From an uncultured Gammaproteobacteria bacterium (GTDB taxonomy: Bacteria; Pseudomonadota; Gammaproteobacteria; UBA6429; Thiohalophilaceae), in NCBI GenBank assembly GCA_913064945.1, contig CAJYAN010000018.1:1-46734 (forward strand): a DNA stretch of 46,734 nucleotides, given 5' to 3'. Shown here piece after piece: positions 431 through 25,967 of this stretch; position 1 is the stretch's first letter; every line of letters begins with the position of its first letter. A program made the position numbers and the translations under genes. The notes under the pieces are model-generated. The model was not told the DNA's origin. It searched no databases and saw only the letters and a list, made by a program, of their open reading frames with translations.

Positions 431-616
431 TTAGCCTTGCTTGACGTCCTGTTGTTCATTTTTGATACGTTCGTAAATTTCTTCACGGTGTACTGCCACA
501 TCTTTCGGCGCATTCACACCAATGCGGACCTGATTACCTTTGACACCTAATACCGTTACAGAAACTTCATCACCTATCATGAGCGTCTCACCAACACGTC
601 GCGTTAATATCAACAT
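431..616 (-). CDS. csrA: Carbon storage regulator CsrA (RsmA)
   Basis: CsrA is a homodimeric RNA-binding protein that recognises GGA motifs in mRNA leaders, often in hairpin loops, and alters translation and stability. The protein has 61 residues, the usual length. It opens with [10 protein letters not shown] and keeps the RNA-contacting L4, R6 and R44 (VHREEIY, 42-48). A good ribosome site (AGGGAGA) precedes the ATG. It lies between lysC and tRNA-Ser in the conserved recA-recX-alaS-(lysC)-csrA-serine tRNA order of gammaproteobacteria. Two possible ligands are visible in this window: a GGA-rich small RNA at 22240-22440 and the GGA-loop hairpins of the repeat at 1-257. Orthology is secure; those links are inferred. 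Confidence 0.97.
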
Positions 617-13146: not shown

Positions 13147-15852
13147 ATGGCTGATCCCGATAGCCTCGTAGACATACTCTGGCACAGTCAGGACCGCGAT
13201 ACGATTTTTATGAAAGTATCATCGTCTGCAGAAGGCCTGTCGCAACAGGATGCACAAGTCCGCTTGCAGGCAGCTGGTCCCAATCGTCTTTCTGATGCAA
13301 AGAAAAAAGGCCTGCTGGCACGTCTTCTCGAACAGTTTCATAATGTTCTCATTTATGTCCTGCTGGGGGCTGGCGCCGTCACTGCCCTGCTCGGTCACTG
13401 GGTCGACAGCGGCGTCATTCTTGGTGTGGTGGTCATCAATGCCATTATTGGTTTCATTCAGGAGGGCAAGGCGGAAAAGGCCCTCGACGCCATCCGCAAT
13501 ATGCTCTCTCAACAGGCCATGATTAAACGTGATGGCAGGTTCATCAACCTTCCTGCTGAACAGTTAGTCCCCGGTGATGTGGTTTTACTTCAGTCCGGTG
13601 ACAAGGTCCCGGCAGACCTGCGCCTGTTCAAGGTCCGTGAACTCCGCATCGAAGAGGCCATGCTCACCGGTGAATCAGTGCCTGTGGAAAAAAACACCCA
13701 TCCAGTCGACGAACATGCCTCCATCGGTGATCGCAAGTGCCTCGCCTACTCCGGCACCCTGGTGACCTACGGTCAGGGCCAGGGTGTTGTCGTCGCGACC
13801 GGCGATCATACCGAGATCGGGCGCATCAGCGGCATGTTAGACAAAGTGCAAACCCTCACCACGCCACTGCTGCGACAGATGGCAACCTTTGCCAGGTGGC
13901 TCACGATTGCCATCGGTATCATCGCCGCCGCCACCTTTGCCTATGGTGTAATGCTGCAGGATTATTCTGCCGGTGACATGTTTCTCGCCGCCGTGGGACT
14001 GGCGGTGGCAGGCATCCCGGAGGGACTACCCGCCATCATGACCATCACCCTGGCCATTGGTGTGCAACGCATGGCCCGGCAACATGCCATCATACGCCGT
14101 CTGCCGGCAGTGGAGACCCTGGGTTCGGTCAGTGTCATCTGTTCGGACAAGACCGGTACCCTGACCCGTAATGAAATGACCGTGCAGAATGTCGCCACCG
14201 GTGCCGGTATCTATGCGGTCAGCGGCGCGGGTTATGATCCCCACGGTGCCTTTAGCCTGGAAGGCCGCGATGTTAGTCCGAAAGCGTTTCCGTTGCTCCA
14301 GGAAATTGCGCAAGCGGCATTGTTATGCAATGACGCTTCATTGTCGGAAGTGAATGGCCAGTGGCTGATGCAGGGCGATCCCACCGAGGGGGCGCTGGTG
14401 ACACTGGCGTTGAAGGCGGGGCTTGAGCACATCTATTGCCAGAACCAATTTCCTCGAACCGATGCCATCCCCTTCGAATCGCAGCACCGCTTTATGGCTA
14501 CCCTGCACCATGACCACGCCGGGCACGGTTTCGTCTATCTCAAAGGGGCACCGGAACGGGTACTGGAAATGTGTCACCTGCAGCGCATGCGTGGTAAAGA
14601 TACTCCCCTGGACATGACCTACTGGAATGATTGCATGCACGCCATGGCCACCCGCGGTCAACGATTGCTGGCCATCGCCTTTAAAACTGCCACGGCCGAA
14701 CAACAGAGTCTTGACTTTAAGGATGTGGAAAGCAGTTTTACCCTGCTCGGCGTGGTGGGGATTATCGATCCACCACGTGAGGAGGCAACCCAGTCGGTGC
14801 ACGACTGCCAGTCGGCCGGCATCCGGGTAAAAATGATCACCGGTGACCACGCCATTACCGCACTCGCGATCGGCACACAAATGGGCATCGGCGATGGTGT
14901 CACGGTCATCAGTGGTAACGAGCTGGAGACCTATGACGAATCTCAGCTGCAAAACGCCGTACAGCGGTCTGATATCTTTGCCCGAGTCTCACCTGAGCAG
15001 AAACTGCAATTGGTAACGGCATTACAGGCCGCTGGCGAAGTCGTTTCCATGACCGGTGACGGTGTCAACGACGCACCGGCGCTAAAGCGTGCCGATGTGG
15101 GTGTCGCCATGGGGCTCAAGGGCACCGAAGTCGCCAAGGAAGCCGCGGAGATGGTGCTCGCCGATGACAACTTTGCCTCCATTGCCCATGCCGTGAAGCA
15201 GGGACGTACGGTGTACGACAATCTGAAGAAATCTATCCTGTTCGTACTCCCCACCAACGGCGGCGAGGCGCTCATCATCATCGCGGCTATTGTCATGGGC
15301 CGTCAACTGCCCATCACCCCGGCACAGATCCTCTGGATCAACATGATCACGGCGGTGACCCTGGCGCTGACCCTGGCCTTTGAGCCGGCAGAACGGCATG
15401 TCATGCAGCGCCCACCGCGAAACCCAAAAGAACCCCTGCTCTCGAAATTCCTGATCTGGCGTATTATCTTTGTCTCCCTGATCCTGGTGGCCGGTACCTT
15501 CGGCCTGTTCCTGTGGGAACGGCAACATGGTGCCTCCATCGAGCTGGCCCGCACTGTCGCCGTTAACACGCTGGTCATGTTTGAGATATTCTATTTATTC
15601 AGCGCCCGTTATCTACTGGCACCTTCATTGACGTATGAGGGCTTGTTCGGCAACCGTTATGTCCTGTATGCCATCGGCCTGCTCGTGCTATTCCAGCTGG
15701 GTTTCACCTACCTCGGTACGATGCAAACACTGTTCGCCACGACTACCATGAGTGGTGAGGCATGGTTGCGTGTCATCGCTGTCGCTTCATCCGTGTTGTT
15801 TCTGGTCGAGATAGAAAAGCTACTGCTCCGTAAATACACCCAATCAGAATAG
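13147..15852 (+). CDS. P-type cation-transporting ATPase (P2 type)
   Basis: The 901-residue membrane pump has all P2 ATPase domains: an N-terminal cation ATPase domain, the actuator loop with TGES, TM4 GIPEGLPAI, the phosphorylated Asp in DKTGTLT (D334), the hinge MTGDGVNDAPAL, and six C-terminal membrane segments. TM5 reads NGGEAL, keeping the Asn and Glu of the calcium site. In TM6 (LWINMITAV) Ala replaces the Asp that completes calcium site II in SERCA. Substrate could be Ca2+, Na+, Mn2+ or H+ and cannot be settled here. AGGAGGA precedes the ATG. Confidence 0.9.
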   Translation: MADPDSLVDILWHSQDRDTIFMKVSSSAEGLSQQDAQVRLQAAGPNRLSDAKKKGLLARLLEQFHNVLIYVLLGAGAVTALLGHWVDSGVILGVVVINAIIGFIQEGKAEKALDAIRNMLSQQAMIKRDGRFINLPAEQLVPGDVVLLQSGDKVPADLRLFKVRELRIEEAMLTGESVPVEKNTHPVDEHASIGDRKCLAYSGTLVTYGQGQGVVVATGDHTEIGRISGMLDKVQTLTTPLLRQMATFARWLTIAIGIIAAATFAYGVMLQDYSAGDMFLAAVGLAVAGIPEGLPAIMTITLAIGVQRMARQHAIIRRLPAVETLGSVSVICSDKTGTLTRNEMTVQNVATGAGIYAVSGAGYDPHGAFSLEGRDVSPKAFPLLQEIAQAALLCNDASLSEVNGQWLMQGDPTEGALVTLALKAGLEHIYCQNQFPRTDAIPFESQHRFMATLHHDHAGHGFVYLKGAPERVLEMCHLQRMRGKDTPLDMTYWNDCMHAMATRGQRLLAIAFKTATAEQQSLDFKDVESSFTLLGVVGIIDPPREEATQSVHDCQSAGIRVKMITGDHAITALAIGTQMGIGDGVTVISGNELETYDESQLQNAVQRSDIFARVSPEQKLQLVTALQAAGEVVSMTGDGVNDAPALKRADVGVAMGLKGTEVAKEAAEMVLADDNFASIAHAVKQGRTVYDNLKKSILFVLPTNGGEALIIIAAIVMGRQLPITPAQILWINMITAVTLALTLAFEPAERHVMQRPPRNPKEPLLSKFLIWRIIFVSLILVAGTFGLFLWERQHGASIELARTVAVNTLVMFEIFYLFSARYLLAPSLTYEGLFGNRYVLYAIGLLVLFQLGFTYLGTMQTLFATTTMSGEAWLRVIAVASSVLFLVEIEKLLLRKYTQSE

Positions 15853-18929: not shown

Positions 18930-19253
18930 ATGACTTACGTAGTAACCGATAACTGTATCCGCTGCAAATACACCGACTGTGTCGAAGTCTGCCCGGTAGA
19001 CTGCTTTCATGAGGGTCCCAATTTCCTGGTCATTGACCCGGATGAATGCATCGACTGCACCCTGTGTGAACCCGAATGCCCGGCAGGGGCTATCTTCGCT
19101 GAAGATGATGTGCCTGATGGCATGGAGCATTTTACCGCCCTTAATGCCGAACTGGCCAACAAGTGGCCGGTAATCACGGAAATGAAACCGGCCCCGGATG
19201 ATGCCAAGGAATGGGATGGCAAGCCGGACAAACTCAAATACCTGGAACGCTAG
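18930..19253 (+). CDS. fdxA: Seven-iron ferredoxin FdxA
   Basis: This small soluble electron carrier holds one [3Fe-4S] and one [4Fe-4S] cluster. In the 107-residue protein C9, C17 and C50 match the three-iron ligands, and C21, C40, C43 and C46 the four-iron ligands of Azotobacter ferredoxin I. CPVDC and [11 protein letters not shown] are visible. The C-terminal extension (about 60-107) is typical of the family. AGGAATTTTCA precedes the ATG. In P. aeruginosa the neighbour of fdxA is the small RNA gene rsmZ; here a similar RNA lies one gene further on. Confidence 0.97.
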
Positions 19254-19274: not shown

Positions 19275-22229
19275 ATGAGCCCAGCGGCCAGCACAATACC
19301 TGACTCACCATTTCTGTGGATCCCCTATGCACAGGATCCGCTGTTGGCCCTGGCACAGCACCTGCTCAGCCAGCATGCAGAAAAGCTGCCCAATCTAAGC
19401 AGCATTGTCATTTTATTGAATGAACCCCAGGCGGCACGTGGTCTACGTCGTTGTCTGCTCGATCAGGCACGGCAGCAGGGCTACGCCGCCCTGCTTGCGC
19501 CGAAAATTGAACGCCTGGACGAATTTGTCAGCGCGCGAGCCAACCTCGAACAGTCACGACACTTCATCGATAGCACCAGCCGTGAACTAATCCTGATCGA
19601 GGCCTTACAACAGCATCCCGCTATCCTCGGTAACGCCAATCCCTGGGTCCTCGCCGAACACCTGTTGAGCCTGTTTGATGAGTTGACCCTCAACCAGCAG
19701 GATCTGCCCGCGAAACTGGAAGACTTTACTGCCTGGCTGCAACAACGATATCAGATCAACGGTCCATCGCTTTCCGGACAAAGCCGTGAAGCGGCACTAA
19801 TCCATACTCTATGGCTCGCCTGGCATACCGAGCTGGAACAACGACAGTCGATAGACAAGACCATTGCCTATACCCAGGCCCTGCAACAACGGCTCGACCT
19901 GCGCGATATCGAGATGATTTATTATGCCGGGGGCATGGCACCCAGCCGCAGCGAAATTCACTGGCTTCAGCAACAGCTACCCGAGAAAAAACTGACCCTG
20001 TGTCTCCAGGGTCAGGTCGATCCCCTGGCCAGTGCGATCCATCCCTCGACACCTCTACGGCAACTGGCCGCAATATTATCCGCGCCCCCTCAGACCACCG
20101 ACACGGTTTCCGCCTATAGCGATACGCTGGATCAGGTCTATGCAGAACATCGAGAGGTGCTGGCTACACGCGCCCGACAACAACAACACAAATTCCAGCA
20201 GAGCCCGCTTCAGGATCGGTTGAGCATCGTCCTGGCTAATAGTGCCGAACAGGAGGCGCGCGCCGTCGATATCCAGATCCGCCAGTGGCTACTGCAGGGT
20301 AAGACCAATATCGCCGTCGTCTGTGAAAATCGACGCCTGTCGCGTCGGCTGCGTGCGCTCCTCGAACGGGCCAACGTCGCCCTGCAGGACACCACCGGCT
20401 GGGCCCTCTCGACCACCAGCGCCAGCGCCACCCTGGAACGCTGGCTGGAATGTATTGAAGAAGACTTTGCCCATGCACCGTTACTGGACTTATTGTCCTC
20501 GGTCTTTATTTTTAGCGACTATGCGTCGGCACAATATAAAAAACTCATCTTCCGTTTTGAGCAGGACATCATTCAAAACGAGAATATTGCCCGTGACCTG
20601 AATCGCTATCGTGCCCATATTCGTGACCGTAGCCAACGGGTTGAAGCCTGGCGCTCCGAACTCGCCAGCGAGTTATTGACGTTATTAGATCAACTGGAAA
20701 TCGCGGCCCAACCCCTGCTACACATTTATCGCGGTCGGCACCCGGCCAATGCATTTCTGTCTGCCCTGCAACAAAGTCTGCACCTGCTGAGCGCAACTGA
20801 GGCACTCAATGGCGATGCGGCCGGGCGACAATTACTCCTGGAACTGGATCGCCTGCAACACAGCGCCCAACAGGCACCACTACCGATGGACTGGTCTACG
20901 TTTCGTACCTGGTTCGGCCGCCATCTGGAACAGTGCCACTTTCGCCCGGAGGTGCATGGCAACCCTGTGCGGCTCATGGGGCTGGCACAGACCCAGTGGC
21001 AGAGTTTTGATGCGCTCATCATTGCCGGTGCCGAGCAACGCTATTTACCCGACAGTGGCGGCAGCTCACCCTTTTTTAATGAGACGGTGAGACAGGAGCT
21101 TGGTCTGACAACCCGGGCCAGTCATATCGCCGAACGCTTTTATCATTTTCGTCGCCTGCTCGAGAGTGCGCCACAGATCGTCATTACGGCCTGTCAGCAA
21201 GACAGTGGTGACCCCGTTGCCATTAGCCCCTGGCTGGAACGCCTGTTGGCCTTTCATCAGATCGCCTGGGGTAATCGGCTGCAGAATGACTCGCTCGCAC
21301 TACTCAGCAAATCACCACAGACGCAGGTCAACCGCGACCCGGATAGCCCCCTGCCCGCTATTCCACAAGCGGCCAGTGCGGTTTTGCCTGTGACTGAACT
21401 GCCGCAGAAATTTTCCGCCAGCGATTATCAAACCCTGCTCGATTGTCCATACCAGTATTTTGCGGCTCGCAGCCTGTCCCTGTCGGCGCCAGAGGAAGTG
21501 CGCCTGGCGTTATCGAAAGCAGATTATGGCTCACGCATACACCAGTGCCTGGATGCCTTGCACGCTGACCGCGCTGGTCTGCCCGGCCCATTCAGGCAGA
21601 CGTTTGATCAGCATCACCGTCAGGCCGCTATCGACCTGCTGAATGAAATTTCGAGTGCCGTGTTTGCCAAAGACCTGCAGGACCACTTCAGTCATCAGGG
21701 CTGGTTACAAAAATGGCAGAGTCAGATCCCTGCCTATATCGATTGGGAAATTGAACGCGCACCACAGTGGCAGGTTGACAGGACCGAAGCCAGTTTTGAA
21801 TCAACAACTCCCAATGGTATTACCTTAAGAGGACAGGTAGATCGACTGGACGTACACGAGGATAAATTTGCGGTGGTCGATTATAAAACCGGTGTCGTAC
21901 CGAAAATGGATGAGGTTGAAGCGGGGGAAAAAATCCAGCTACCTTTTTATACCCTGCTGACTAAAGATACTTCCGCTGTGACGCAGGTGAGTTATTTGGG
22001 TCTGGACCCTGTCAGTAAAAAAGAGGCTGCACTATCCGATGAAGCCTTACAGACCCTCGCCTTTGACATACAACAACGACTGGATACCGTGGTGACAGAA
22101 ATGTCGCAGGGACGGGGCCTGCCCGCCTGGGGGGATAATCGTGCCTGTCGTTACTGCGATATGAACCGAATTTGTCGCCGTGCGGTCTGGGAAAATGAAT
22201 CGACTCTGGAGCAAGAGCCTCATGCCTGA
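19275..22229 (+). CDS. AddB-like DNA repair nuclease/helicase subunit
   Basis: AddB is the partner of AddA in double-strand-break end processing. The 984-residue protein has the C-terminal PD-(D/E)XK nuclease (GITLRGQVDRLD, then VVDYKTG near residue 870). The four cysteines of the AddB iron-sulfur staple are C724 in DCPYQYF and C958, C961, C967 in CRYCDMNRIC. The N-terminus has no Walker A motif, unlike Bacillus AddB, which fits the gammaproteobacterial AddB-like group often labelled 'probable DNA repair protein'. It starts 22 bases after fdxA. AddA follows, separated by 339 bases that hold an opposite-strand small RNA. Confidence 0.87.
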   Translation: MSPAASTIPDSPFLWIPYAQDPLLALAQHLLSQHAEKLPNLSSIVILLNEPQAARGLRRCLLDQARQQGYAALLAPKIERLDEFVSARANLEQSRHFIDSTSRELILIEALQQHPAILGNANPWVLAEHLLSLFDELTLNQQDLPAKLEDFTAWLQQRYQINGPSLSGQSREAALIHTLWLAWHTELEQRQSIDKTIAYTQALQQRLDLRDIEMIYYAGGMAPSRSEIHWLQQQLPEKKLTLCLQGQVDPLASAIHPSTPLRQLAAILSAPPQTTDTVSAYSDTLDQVYAEHREVLATRARQQQHKFQQSPLQDRLSIVLANSAEQEARAVDIQIRQWLLQGKTNIAVVCENRRLSRRLRALLERANVALQDTTGWALSTTSASATLERWLECIEEDFAHAPLLDLLSSVFIFSDYASAQYKKLIFRFEQDIIQNENIARDLNRYRAHIRDRSQRVEAWRSELASELLTLLDQLEIAAQPLLHIYRGRHPANAFLSALQQSLHLLSATEALNGDAAGRQLLLELDRLQHSAQQAPLPMDWSTFRTWFGRHLEQCHFRPEVHGNPVRLMGLAQTQWQSFDALIIAGAEQRYLPDSGGSSPFFNETVRQELGLTTRASHIAERFYHFRRLLESAPQIVITACQQDSGDPVAISPWLERLLAFHQIAWGNRLQNDSLALLSKSPQTQVNRDPDSPLPAIPQAASAVLPVTELPQKFSASDYQTLLDCPYQYFAARSLSLSAPEEVRLALSKADYGSRIHQCLDALHADRAGLPGPFRQTFDQHHRQAAIDLLNEISSAVFAKDLQDHFSHQGWLQKWQSQIPAYIDWEIERAPQWQVDRTEASFESTTPNGITLRGQVDRLDVHEDKFAVVDYKTGVVPKMDEVEAGEKIQLPFYTLLTKDTSAVTQVSYLGLDPVSKKEAALSDEALQTLAFDIQQRLDTVVTEMSQGRGLPAWGDNRACRYCDMNRICRRAVWENESTLEQEPHA

Positions 22230-22239
22230 TATCGGACAT

Positions 22240-22265
22240 AAAAAAAAGCGGCCAATCCTGGCCGC
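22240..22265 (-). terminator. Rho-independent terminator of the small RNA
   Basis: On the minus strand a perfect 7-bp stem GCGGCCA/TGGCCGC with loop GGAT (22248-22265) is followed by eight T (22240-22247). No protein gene on this strand ends here, so it should terminate a non-coding transcript. The loop itself contains a GGA motif. Confidence 0.85.
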
Positions 22266-22440
22266 CCATCTTAGTCCCTTGCAGGCATTCCTGCCCGTTG
22301 CTATGTACCCTGCAGATTCATACGTATCAACAGCGCAAACCGTTGACCAGCATCCTGCTGCTGCATCAAGTCCCTGGCCGATCCTTGTGGGCCTTCCCGC
22401 CCAATATCACGTGTCCGTGTGTTTTGTCCTATTACTCGCA
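22240..22440 (-). ncRNA. CsrB/RsmZ-type CsrA-sequestering small RNA (predicted)
   Basis: Read on the minus strand, the roughly 200-nt segment has nine GGA motifs (plus-strand TCC at 22256, 22275, 22289, 22353, 22371, 22382, 22395, 22414 and 22427). Several lie in hairpin loops: TGGGC-GGGAAG-GCCCA (22388-22403), CAGC-AGGAT-GCTG (22348-22360), GGCA-GGAA-TGCC (22284-22295) and the terminator loop (22255-22258). Such RNAs bind several CsrA dimers and relieve repression; csrA is in this window. No protein frame fits this strand. In Pseudomonas rsmZ is also beside fdxA. A GacA-type upstream site (TGTAAG-N6-CTTACA) was not found. The 5' end is estimated from the promoter. Confidence 0.78.
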
Positions 22441-22446
22441 AGCACG

Positions 22447-22474
22447 GTAATACTAAACCCTATAAGCCTAGCAA
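22447..22474 (-). promoter_or_regulatory. Possible promoter of the small RNA
   Basis: On the minus strand TTGCTA (22469-22474) and TATTAC (22447-22452) are 16 bp apart, each matching four of six consensus bases. This would start transcription near 22440, just before the first GGA motif. It is a modest match. Confidence 0.4.
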
Positions 22475-22568
22475 GTTACCCGGACATCGCAAGTCGAACA
22501 TCGCACATCATATTAAAATATGGCAAAACCGTGTCGACGTTCTCACCCTGCTATCGTGAGATGAACCA

Positions 22569-25500
22569 ATGACCACATCAACCGCCATCGAATACAACCC
22601 CGCCGATGTAGGACATTTACCGTATTTAACCGTGCAGGCCTCAGCCGGTAGCGGCAAGACCTATCTGCTGGTCAGTCGTCTCATTTATTTATTGCTCGGT
22701 GGACATACCCCTAATGCTATTCTCGCCATTACCTTTACCCGCAAGGCCTCCGCCGAAATGCACTGTCGTTTACTGGAGCGACTTTATACGCTAAGCCAGG
22801 CGAATGAACAGCAACTCACTGTTGAACTCCAGGCCCTCGGACTCGAGGCGAACGCACAAAACCGACAACGCGCACAACGACTCTACGAGGAATTGCTAAG
22901 TAGCGAACAACAGGTACGCATCACAACCTTTCACGCCTTTTGTCAGGAACTCCTGCGCCGCTTTCCACTGGAAGCGGATATACCCCCGGGCTTTGAGCTG
23001 ATCGAACGTACCGGTGAATTCCGTGATGAGGCCTGGGAGGCATTAATGACCCGTGCCGCAAAACAACCACAGTCAACCACAGCAGAGGCGCTGCGTTTTT
23101 TGTTTGCCGAGCTGGAACAATTTAATACTCGACAGGCACTGGATAGTTTTCTTAATCATCGCAGCGACTGGTGGGCCTTTAGTCGAGATAACGACAGTCC
23201 GGTAGAGACGGCGCAACAGCAACTGCTGGCCGAGCTGGACATTGACCTTGATATAGACCCAGTCGCAATTTTTTTTGCAAACGATAGCCTGCTCCAACGC
23301 ATACAGCGTTTTTTATATTGCCTGGAAAAACACAGTAACAAGACGAATGACCAACATGCCGCACAACTGCGTGGCGCATTGAGTGATCAATGGTCGACCG
23401 AGGAGCGTCGGTTACTACTCAGTGATGTCTTCCTCACACAAAAGGGTGAACCGCGCAGTCGCAAACCCGGCAAGACCCTCGATAGCAAACTGGGGGGCGA
23501 GGCTGCCGTGCAGTTTATCGAAGACCATCACTTTATTTGCACGTGCCTGCTGGAACTCAACGCCACACTAAAAAGCTATACGACCTATCAACGCTGCTCG
23601 GCCTGGTATATCGCCGGTCAACAATATTTGCATGACTACCAGCGTATTAAACAGGAGCAACGTCTGCTCGATTTTTCCGATCTGGAATGGAAGGCCTATC
23701 AACTCTTAAATGAAAGTGAGCACGCCCTGTGGGTGCAATATAAACTCGATACCCGCCTGGACCACATCCTGATCGATGAATTTCAGGATACCAACCCGAC
23801 CCAATGGCGACTGCTATTACCCCTGCTGGAGGAACTCGCCAGCCAGACCGCGGAGCGACACCGCAGTGTGCTATTTGTCGGCGATGCCAAACAATCCATT
23901 TATCGTTTTCGACGTGCTGAACCCAGGCTATTTGACAGTGCGGAGCACTGGCTACGTAGCCGACTATCCGCAACCACCCTGCCCCTATCATCGTCATGGC
24001 GTTCATCACCGGCCATCATCAATTTTGTTAACACGCTCTTTGCGAGTGGTCCCTTACACGAAGCGCTGCCGGAGTTTCATGAACACAGTACCCATCAACA
24101 GAATGACTGGGGGCGGGTAACACTCATGCCGCTGTGTGACGAACCGGAACAGCATGCCGACGAACGTTACTATATGCGTAACCCGCTACGGACACCTCGA
24201 CAGGAAAAACAGAGTCAGCGTTATTATCAGGAAGGCGTGCTGATCGCCAGGCAGATCAAATTACTGCTACAGGAAAAAACCGTCATAGGTCAGCCGGACA
24301 ACGCGCGCCTACTGGATTACGGCGATATTATGATCCTGCTGCGCTATCGTACCCATGCCGATGACTATGAACGTGCGCTACGCGATAATGGCATCCCCTA
24401 CATTGGCGCCGAACGCGGCACACTGTTAGAAAGCATTGAAATTCAGGATATGCAGGACCTGCTGCACTTTCTCATCACCCCTCAATATAATCTGGCCCTG
24501 GCCGGGGTTCTGCGTTCCCCCTTGTTTGCGGCCAGCGAGGATGACTTATTACGCTTAGCCGGCAGCCATAATACCGCCTGGTGGGAAGCCTTGCGTCAGT
24601 TAGCGGCAGCACTACCCGAGGAGAGTGTTTTAGCCAGGGCCTATCGATTGCTGAGTCAATGGATTGCCCTGACCGGCCACCTGCCCGTACATGACTTGCT
24701 CGACCGTATATTTTGCGAAGGTAATGTTATTGCACGCTATGCCAGTGCTTCACCACCGCACATGGTCAATCGGGTCACCACGAATCTGACCCGCTTTCTG
24801 GAGCTGGCACTGGAAGTCGATAGTGGGCGTTATCCCAGCCTGTTACGGTTTTTAAGTTGGCTAAAGGATTTACGCCAGCAAAATAACGAAGCCCCCGACG
24901 CACCACCTGCCGGAGAAGATCAGCGCCGCGTCCAGATCATGACCATCCACTCGGCCAAAGGTCTGGAGGCACCCGTGGTTTTCCTGGCGGACTGTGCTGG
25001 TAGTGACCGCAATAAACATGCCCATCAGGCCCTGGTGCACTGGCCCGTCGACAGCGCACAACCCGAGGCCTTTTTACTCAACCCGGGCAAGGAACAGCGT
25101 GACCCCTTCACGGCACGGATTTTCAGTGACTATGAGATCGCCCTGGAGCAGGAAAATGCCAATCTATTTTATGTGGCCACCACACGCTGTCGCCAGCTGT
25201 TATATCTATCCGGCAGTCGACCTCAAAAAGGCGAAGGGCTCGGCTGGTATGGGCATGTGTTAAATCAATACCACAAATCTGCTGATGACGTGACTGCGAG
25301 CCTACTGCTTGAGTCGTACCTGCACATGCCAGAGGCACAACCCGTGCCGATACTACCTCCGATGGTCGAGGCTGACGCCACCGGGCTGGACCAGCCCCTA
25401 CAGGTCCTTGCCCAGGAACGGGAGATAGCCCCCAGCCGACATACCTATCAAGTCCAACAGAACACCAGCGACGACCCGGATGGCCGTGAACGCGGTATTG

Positions 25501-25967
25501 TCATCCATCTGTTACTACAACACCTGACACAGACACCGACCCAGCATGAAAGTCGCGACTGGTTACATCTACTGAGTAAACAACTACGCCAGGCAATTGA
25601 TGAGTCTTTATGGCAATCCTGCTGGGAAGAAGTCCAGGGCATACTCAACACAGTTGAAAATGCCGATATATTCAGCGCAGAGAACTATGCTCAGGCATTA
25701 AATGAAGTACCGATCATCTATTATCAGGGAGGCACCCTCGTGCATGGGATTATCGACCGCCTGGTCATCACAGGCGATAGTGCCATCATTATCGACTACA
25801 AATCACATCAACATGTCAGCGTTGACAATCTATTGTCGTTGGCCGAATCCTACCGTGAACAATTACAATACTATATTGAGGGTATCAAACAGCTTTGGCC
25901 TGCGAAAAGGATCCGTGCCGAACTCCTGTTTACTGCAGGTAATCTGCGCTGGGTACTTCCAGCGTAG
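22569..25967 (+). CDS. addA: AddA-like UvrD-family helicase-nuclease
   Basis: AddA is the ATP-driven 3'-5' helicase and nuclease of the AddAB double-strand-break resection complex. The 1132-residue protein has Walker A in ASAGSGKTYLLV (about 24-35), motif Ia AITFTRKASAEM, the motif II region ILIDEFQDTNPTQW, motif III VGDAKQSIYRFRRA, later motifs (TIHSAKGLEAPVV, FYVATTRCR), and a C-terminal RecB-type nuclease (VHGIIDRL, then IIDYKSH near the end). Length and domain order match AddA rather than RecB. The start is the ATG at 22569; GTGAGATGAACC upstream gives only a weak ribosome site. Confidence 0.9.
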   Translation: MTTSTAIEYNPADVGHLPYLTVQASAGSGKTYLLVSRLIYLLLGGHTPNAILAITFTRKASAEMHCRLLERLYTLSQANEQQLTVELQALGLEANAQNRQRAQRLYEELLSSEQQVRITTFHAFCQELLRRFPLEADIPPGFELIERTGEFRDEAWEALMTRAAKQPQSTTAEALRFLFAELEQFNTRQALDSFLNHRSDWWAFSRDNDSPVETAQQQLLAELDIDLDIDPVAIFFANDSLLQRIQRFLYCLEKHSNKTNDQHAAQLRGALSDQWSTEERRLLLSDVFLTQKGEPRSRKPGKTLDSKLGGEAAVQFIEDHHFICTCLLELNATLKSYTTYQRCSAWYIAGQQYLHDYQRIKQEQRLLDFSDLEWKAYQLLNESEHALWVQYKLDTRLDHILIDEFQDTNPTQWRLLLPLLEELASQTAERHRSVLFVGDAKQSIYRFRRAEPRLFDSAEHWLRSRLSATTLPLSSSWRSSPAIINFVNTLFASGPLHEALPEFHEHSTHQQNDWGRVTLMPLCDEPEQHADERYYMRNPLRTPRQEKQSQRYYQEGVLIARQIKLLLQEKTVIGQPDNARLLDYGDIMILLRYRTHADDYERALRDNGIPYIGAERGTLLESIEIQDMQDLLHFLITPQYNLALAGVLRSPLFAASEDDLLRLAGSHNTAWWEALRQLAAALPEESVLARAYRLLSQWIALTGHLPVHDLLDRIFCEGNVIARYASASPPHMVNRVTTNLTRFLELALEVDSGRYPSLLRFLSWLKDLRQQNNEAPDAPPAGEDQRRVQIMTIHSAKGLEAPVVFLADCAGSDRNKHAHQALVHWPVDSAQPEAFLLNPGKEQRDPFTARIFSDYEIALEQENANLFYVATTRCRQLLYLSGSRPQKGEGLGWYGHVLNQYHKSADDVTASLLLESYLHMPEAQPVPILPPMVEADATGLDQPLQVLAQEREIAPSRHTYQVQQNTSDDPDGRERGIVIHLLLQHLTQTPTQHESRDWLHLLSKQLRQAIDESLWQSCWEEVQGILNTVENADIFSAENYAQALNEVPIIYYQGGTLVHGIIDRLVITGDSAIIIDYKSHQHVSVDNLLSLAESYREQLQYYIEGIKQLWPAKRIRAELLFTAGNLRWVLPA

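Follow-up and report, generated by a model that had tools for sequence, protein, structure and literature searches.

The stretch of DNA analysed here (the window; 46,734 nucleotides of contig CAJYAN010000018.1 from an uncultured gammaproteobacterium assigned to the Thiohalophilaceae) contains a 339-base intergenic gap between the end of addB (22229) and the start of addA (22569), and the minus strand of this gap carries a predicted small RNA gene of the CsrB/RsmZ type, which overlaps neither coding region in the window (Table 1). The addB gene sits between fdxA and the RNA gene. The AddAB pair of the window (19275-25967) was nearest to alphaproteobacterial models, though under their cut-offs. 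The earlier note on this DNA placed csrA in the same window, and the NF002469 match bears this out. The 5' end of the RNA gene was assigned from the conserved promoter, with a precision of about 3 nt on either side.

Table 1. Coordinates of the genes and of the predicted RNA features in the window
Feature	Position	Strand	Basis or remark
csrA, presumed target protein	431-616	-	NF002469, 110.1 bits (cut-off 73)
fdxA, syntenic marker common to rsmZ loci	18930-19253	+	NF045490, 168.4 bits (cut-off 135)
addB, flanking gene	19275-22229	+	TIGR02786, 164.4 bits (below cut-off 486.5); PF12705
Predicted CsrB/RsmZ-type small RNA gene, about 220 nt	22240-22458	-	R1 match, promoter, RF00018 match
Intrinsic terminator	22240-22267	-	GGA in loop
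GGA between hairpin 4 and terminator	22275-22277	-	in AGGGA
Hairpin 4, CGGGCA-GGAA-TGCCTG	22282-22297	-	GGA in loop
Hairpin 3, CAGCA-GCAGGA-TGCTG	22348-22363	-	GGA in loop
GGA between hairpins 2 and 3	22371-22373	-	in AGGGA
GGA between hairpins 2 and 3	22382-22384	-	in AAGGA; partly paired in the window's fold
Hairpin 2, TGGGC-GGGAAG-GCCCA	22388-22403	-	GGA in loop
Hairpin 1, CACACGGACACGTG	22408-22421	-	GGA in loop in the family consensus fold
-10 box TAGGCT, preceded by TGC (extended -10)	22465-22470	-	conserved pattern
-35 box CTTGCG	22488-22493	-	conserved pattern
addA, flanking gene	22569-25967	+	TIGR02784, 591.8 bits (below cut-off 860.75)

The perfect minus-strand terminator that had been described was seen at 22265-22240, with a stem of GCGGCCA (22265-22259) and TGGCCGC (22254-22248), the loop GGAT (22258-22255) and eight T (22247-22240). 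On the plus strand no T run follows the stem, which speaks against a terminator of addB. The dense GGA motifs were likewise recovered: nine were counted within 22236-22437 of the minus strand, and nowhere in the window, on either strand, do 202 nt hold more. An equal count is reached at 13551-13752 of the minus strand (nine GGA in 202 nt), a stretch antisense to a P-type ATPase gene whose richness in GGA is probably an effect of composition. The GGA count at the RNA locus is by itself mildly unusual (at least nine in 126 of 2,000 shuffles). Four GGA in hairpin loops, as present in hairpins 2, 3, 4 and the terminator of the window's fold, were rare and were matched by one of 500 shuffles. When the window's sequence is folded at lowest energy, some bases of the hairpin 1 GGA are paired. 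The minus strand of 265 nt folded more stably than its shuffles (z = -3.44).

The predicted promoter of the RNA in the window (22493-22465) consists of CTTGCG, a spacer of 17 and TAGGCT. The corresponding pattern CTTG-N19-TANNNT (spacer 17), which was derived by eye from these same upstream sequences, was found in 13 of 35 family loci including that of the window and was missing in 22; the remaining spacers between 14 and 22 each gave 0-2 of the 35. The modest promoter proposed earlier did not hold, since the sole promoter-like site of the scan, at 22537-22510, differs from the conserved one; chance alone would give 1.1 such sites. As in known members of the class, an own promoter and a Rho-independent terminator can thus be recognised at the sequence level.

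The scan with Rfam models that had been suggested gave no call at curated scores for either CsrB or RsmZ; at gathering scores only tRNA was reported in the window. At a loose threshold, RF00018 (CsrB) matched 22236-22437 of the minus strand with 15.1 bits (E 0.1; below the gathering score of 71), and nowhere else in the 3.2-Mb genome did CsrB match at E <= 10. The loose scan discarded one further, weaker match from the CsrB clan, which was not named and overlapped that of CsrB. RF00166 (PrrB_RsmZ; gathering score 44 bits, not reached) had no match at the RNA locus in the genome search. Its best match in the genome (C21:14979; 22.6 bits, E 0.005) was rejected, as it coincides in part with the end of an open reading frame and with the terminator of that frame; the neighbouring gene looks by eye like one for a DNA methyltransferase. 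Five weaker RF00166 matches were also returned.

For the comparison with relatives, AddA was sought in all 40 genomes of the family, and 25 of the 30 returned loci supplied upstream regions. A minus-strand terminator passed the filter in 22 of these 25, and in 22, all but L040, L054 and L055, the minus strand was richer in GGA than the plus strand. By DNA similarity alone, the RNA was matched in two of 57 other genomes (G012 and G005); the remaining matches were short and were disregarded. The alignment, from hairpin 1 through the terminator, comprised 24 of the 25 loci including the window's; 23 sequences were cut by the hairpin 1 pattern (CACA-GGA type) and L043 was cut by hand, and the remaining hairpins were not used for cutting. 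The GGA of hairpins 1, 2, 3 and 4 was retained in 24, 23, 23 and 24 of the 24 aligned sequences, the conservation of hairpin 1 being partly built in by the cutting, and in 11, 10, 10 and 11 of 11 held-out relatives. Conservation of the GGA-loop positions in related genomes, on which the earlier note had staked its reading, was thus found for hairpins 1 to 4, with covarying stems. Its statement on GGA in loops stood in part: four lie in hairpin loops of the window, the terminator loop among them, but the GGA of the terminator hairpin is not a family feature (6 of the 24 aligned sequences).

In the structure-free alignment of the 24 sequences, changes on both sides were found in 12 of 23 predicted pairs, compared with none of 500 shuffles, which overstate the covariation somewhat because the aligned sequences are kin, and at most 5 in slid versions. 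In the alignment of 38 sequences fitted to the model described below, and hence biased towards its structure, both sides had changed in 18 of 23 pairs (at most 7 in slid versions). All seven terminator pairs changed on both sides. Hairpin 1 of most relatives reads CACARGGA...GTG, which resembles the CsrA site RUACARGGAUGU obtained by SELEX, as quoted in a passage of PMC7652899. The traits of a CsrA-sponge RNA found here are GGA in hairpin loops and spacers, compensatory changes in the fold and a CsrA in the same genome.

An RNA model (R1) was built from the 24 aligned relatives and searched in 115 genomes with stricter filters. In the window, R1 matched 22238-22429 of the minus strand with 127.4 bits (E 4.2e-32, whole genome searched), the window's own RNA sequence having been part of the model; this was the sole match at E <= 0.1 in that genome, in which no second copy was found. 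Matches at E <= 0.1 were obtained in 49 of the 115 genomes. One strong copy (E <= 4e-17) was present in 35 of the 40 family genomes, some of which carry additional weak matches (E 0.0017 or above), and 11 of the 35 lie outside the model (G011, G017, G020, G022, G023, G028, G030, G031, G032, G033 and G059). Three family genomes were not judged for presence of the RNA: G009 had weak R1 matches only and its fdxA contig ends inside addB, the contig of G002 stops 63 bases upstream of the AddA match, and in G025 an fdxA match was not found. In the other two (G007 and G021), genomes of good quality from one genus, there was no RNA between fdxA and the thioredoxin-TPR gene (gap of about 116 and 137 bases), and we read this as true absence. 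This genus (loci L160 and L161) seems to have lost the RNA, and it has no close AddA.

Outside the family, weak R1 matches occurred in 13 of 75 genomes, the five best being G084, G055, G057, G094 and G095. The neighbourhood backs three of these: the match of G055 adjoins fdxA, that of G084 lies about 0.8 kb from fdxA, and that of G094 is flanked by addB and addA. When aligned, the G084 and G094 sequences lack the front hairpins or show them poorly. The matches of G057 and G095 have neither fdxA nor add genes adjacent and are not claimed.

In five of the family genomes that have no close AddA (G011, G017, G022, G023 and G033, three of them less than 90% complete), the RNA lies directly beside fdxA and convergent with it; about 15-25 nt separate its 3' end from the stop codon of fdxA on the opposite strand. 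The same neighbour is found at RsmZ loci. For this comparison we used the best 30 loci, one per genome, from another family, in which 43 of 59 genomes matched RF00166: fdxA is convergent on the 3' side in 17 of the 30, and in 22 rpoS lies 5' of RsmZ with the same orientation. This agrees with the position of rsmZ between rpoS and fdxA in P. aeruginosa given in the cited part of PMC3349714, and with the neighbours named in that of PMC4353343. The argument from the fdxA neighbourhood, which the earlier note had made for P. aeruginosa, holds for both sets of loci. In one genus of the RsmZ-bearing family (G327, G343, G354 and G366), 8, 10, 15 and 8 RsmZ matches were counted, many of them above the Rfam cut-off.

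R1 holds no RsmZ sequence. Searched against the 30 RsmZ loci (92 kb), it gave 21 matches at E <= 1 in 20 loci (best 3.9e-6), 20 of them on the RsmZ gene and on its strand and one beside the gene on the other strand; 16 matches had E <= 0.05 and 10 had E <= 1e-3. Only one of the 10 best matched loci (L139) adjoins fdxA, and 8 of the 17 fdxA-linked loci were matched. Because of this poor overlap between R1 matches and fdxA linkage, the profile match could mean shared architecture and not descent; a common ancestor of this RNA and RsmZ is likely but not proven. The two have in common GGA in hairpin loops and between hairpins, the terminator, and a 3' end that faces the 3' end of fdxA. They differ in that RF00166 covers 133 model positions, compared with about 220 nt here, and misses the RNA, and in that the RNA of the window is flanked by addB and addA and not by rpoS. 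CsrB/RsmB (RF00018) is similar in its many GGA hairpins and gives the full-length weak match mentioned above, whereas its model has 356 positions and the score falls far under the gathering score.

These data also bear on the explanation that the RNA is a structured base-pairing small RNA of the Hfq or ProQ type, in which GGA is present for another reason. The terminator and the stable hairpins would suit such an RNA equally well. However, four separate hairpins retain their GGA even as the stem pairs vary, and both the place and the profile are shared with RsmZ; we consider this explanation very unlikely.

The gene order fdxA-addB-RNA-addA, for which conservation in relatives had been left to be checked, holds in part. 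The RNA lies upstream of addA in the 24 aligned loci, and addB was genuinely matched upstream of addA at 15 loci of the 25; for the remaining ten it was not found within the stretch examined, which is at most 1.5 kb (63 bases in L040; a chance match only in L042). In the five genomes just described, however, the order is not kept. As they have no close AddA and the RNA is still beside fdxA, the flanking repair genes come and go and the RNA stays. In G023, and in G055 outside the family, the other side of the RNA is occupied by the thioredoxin-TPR gene, which follows addA in the window. AddA/RecB-like matches were only distant in eight family genomes (G007, G011, G017, G021, G022, G023, G028 and G033), and in these the addAB pair seems to have been lost or exchanged.

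The RNA could also be thought to act in cis, its transcription or its pairing tuning the recombination genes addB and addA on the opposite strand, as might be suggested by its position upstream of addA, on the other strand, in the aligned loci, by addB on its other side in many of them, and by the weak partial R1 match between addB and addA in another family (G094). This too is, in our view, very unlikely: the RNA overlaps neither coding region in the window, five genomes keep it beside fdxA without a close AddA, and the conserved feature is GGA in hairpin loops. That there is no gene at all, and that a chance terminator or the terminator of addB adjoins GGA present by chance, is almost certainly wrong: the GGA number is indeed reached by shuffles at the frequency given above, but the plus-strand stem has no T run after it, and 35 of 40 genomes conserve both the hairpins and the terminator.

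The RNA is thus very probably one that sequesters CsrA, and its lineage is probably that of RsmZ. The build of a CsrA-titrating RNA, which the earlier note had recognised, is upheld by the conserved GGA hairpins, the covarying stems and the place common to rsmZ. On this strong comparative evidence, the RNA between addB and addA very probably adds a new, so far unannotated member to the CsrA-sponge class; among the matches listed for the Csr/Rsm RNA literature there was no report of it, and a report filed under a species name could be missed in such a search. According to the proposed mechanism, RNA polymerase would initiate near 22458 on the minus strand and stop at the terminator at 22240, and the transcript would fold into a row of short hairpins with GGA in the loops and further GGA between them. 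CsrA dimers would bind these GGA sites and be drawn off mRNA leaders, and the CsrA regulon would thereby be released.

Regulators that might act on such a gene were searched for in the window's genome. The best relative of UvrY/GacA is on contig C22 (50-52% identity), with uvrC about 1 kb downstream. The best BarA match, one among many kinase matches, is a hybrid-kinase-like protein on contig C20 (32% identity over part of the query). CRP relatives at E <= 1e-20 were found in 39 of the 40 family genomes, and in 37 of these the identity to E. coli CRP is 63-69%; in the window's genome it is 67%.

The GacA box has the consensus TGTAAG-N6-CTTACA. With at most one mismatch it was present in 27 of the 30 RsmZ loci, whereas with at most two mismatches it was found in none of the 34 family upstream regions; at three mismatches, matches in five of the 34 were not clearly raised over the 3.0 expected. 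The window's genome was also searched for a second sponge RNA by means of the GacA box, and two palindromic places with one mismatch were obtained, compared with three in the reversed-pattern control. Both were rejected as sponge RNAs, as no GGA-rich stretch with a terminator follows either. The motif TGTGA-N6-TCACA, which we take to be the CRP-type palindrome, showed the opposite distribution: with at most one mismatch it was present in 17 of the 34 family loci, compared with 0.2 in shuffles, whereas the 30 RsmZ loci had no such site even when two mismatches were allowed. The 17 sites span eight of 18 genera and are not 17 independent events. Eight loci (L083, L085, L086, L090, L097, L101, L103 and L104) have the perfect palindrome upstream of the RNA. 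Among the spacing controls, a spacer of five gave one and a spacer of seven gave two family loci; the N8 control, too, exceeded expectation (14 of 34 when up to two mismatches were allowed, 2.9 expected), which we take to be overlap with the true CRP-type sites. In the cited part of PMC4353343, the site upstream of rsmZ has the form of the GacA box.

The position of the CRP-type site is variable, from 20 to 198 bases before the start of the R1 model. Ten family loci show the promoter together with a site of no more than two mismatches; in seven of them the site is centred 56.5 to 59.5 bases upstream of the predicted start (six of the seven in one genus), and the other three centres are at -75.5, -80.5 and +7.5. 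In G011, G017 and G022 the gene on the 5' side of the RNA encodes a DsbC relative (46-49% identity to that of the window); it runs towards the RNA and ends before the CRP-type site, and no divergent gene start was seen near the site, which most likely serves the RNA. The gap after fdxA in G007 and G021, the two genomes without the RNA, has no CRP-type site (best five mismatches). Note that the window's own copy of the RNA has neither a CRP-type site (best three mismatches, chance level) nor a GacA box.

In many relatives, the promoter of the RNA is thus probably addressed by CRP and not by GacA. We lean, with some reserve, towards the wider view that in much of the family an RNA of the RsmZ line has a CRP site in place of the GacA box, so that cAMP-CRP (carbon status), and not Gac, would set CsrA activity at this gene. 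A link between Csr RNAs and CRP has been described in Yersinia, acting on CsrB through UvrY, in the cited part of PMC3523269. According to PMC5568370, predicted RNAs regulating RsmA may be activated by factors other than GacA; the likeness to them is a control not tied to Gac, whereas section 16 of that article has RpoN-like sites in P. syringae, and neither a CRP-type site nor an addA/addB locus was seen in it.

The RNA would supply a likely CsrA antagonist for a family in which the CsrB and RsmZ models of Rfam, as tried in the window's genome, stay below threshold, and the R1 model detects it in 35 of the 40 genomes. The sponge RNA appears to hold its place through gain and loss of the surrounding repair genes. 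With the control site apparently changed from GacA to CRP, the evolution of Csr/Rsm wiring becomes open to direct test.
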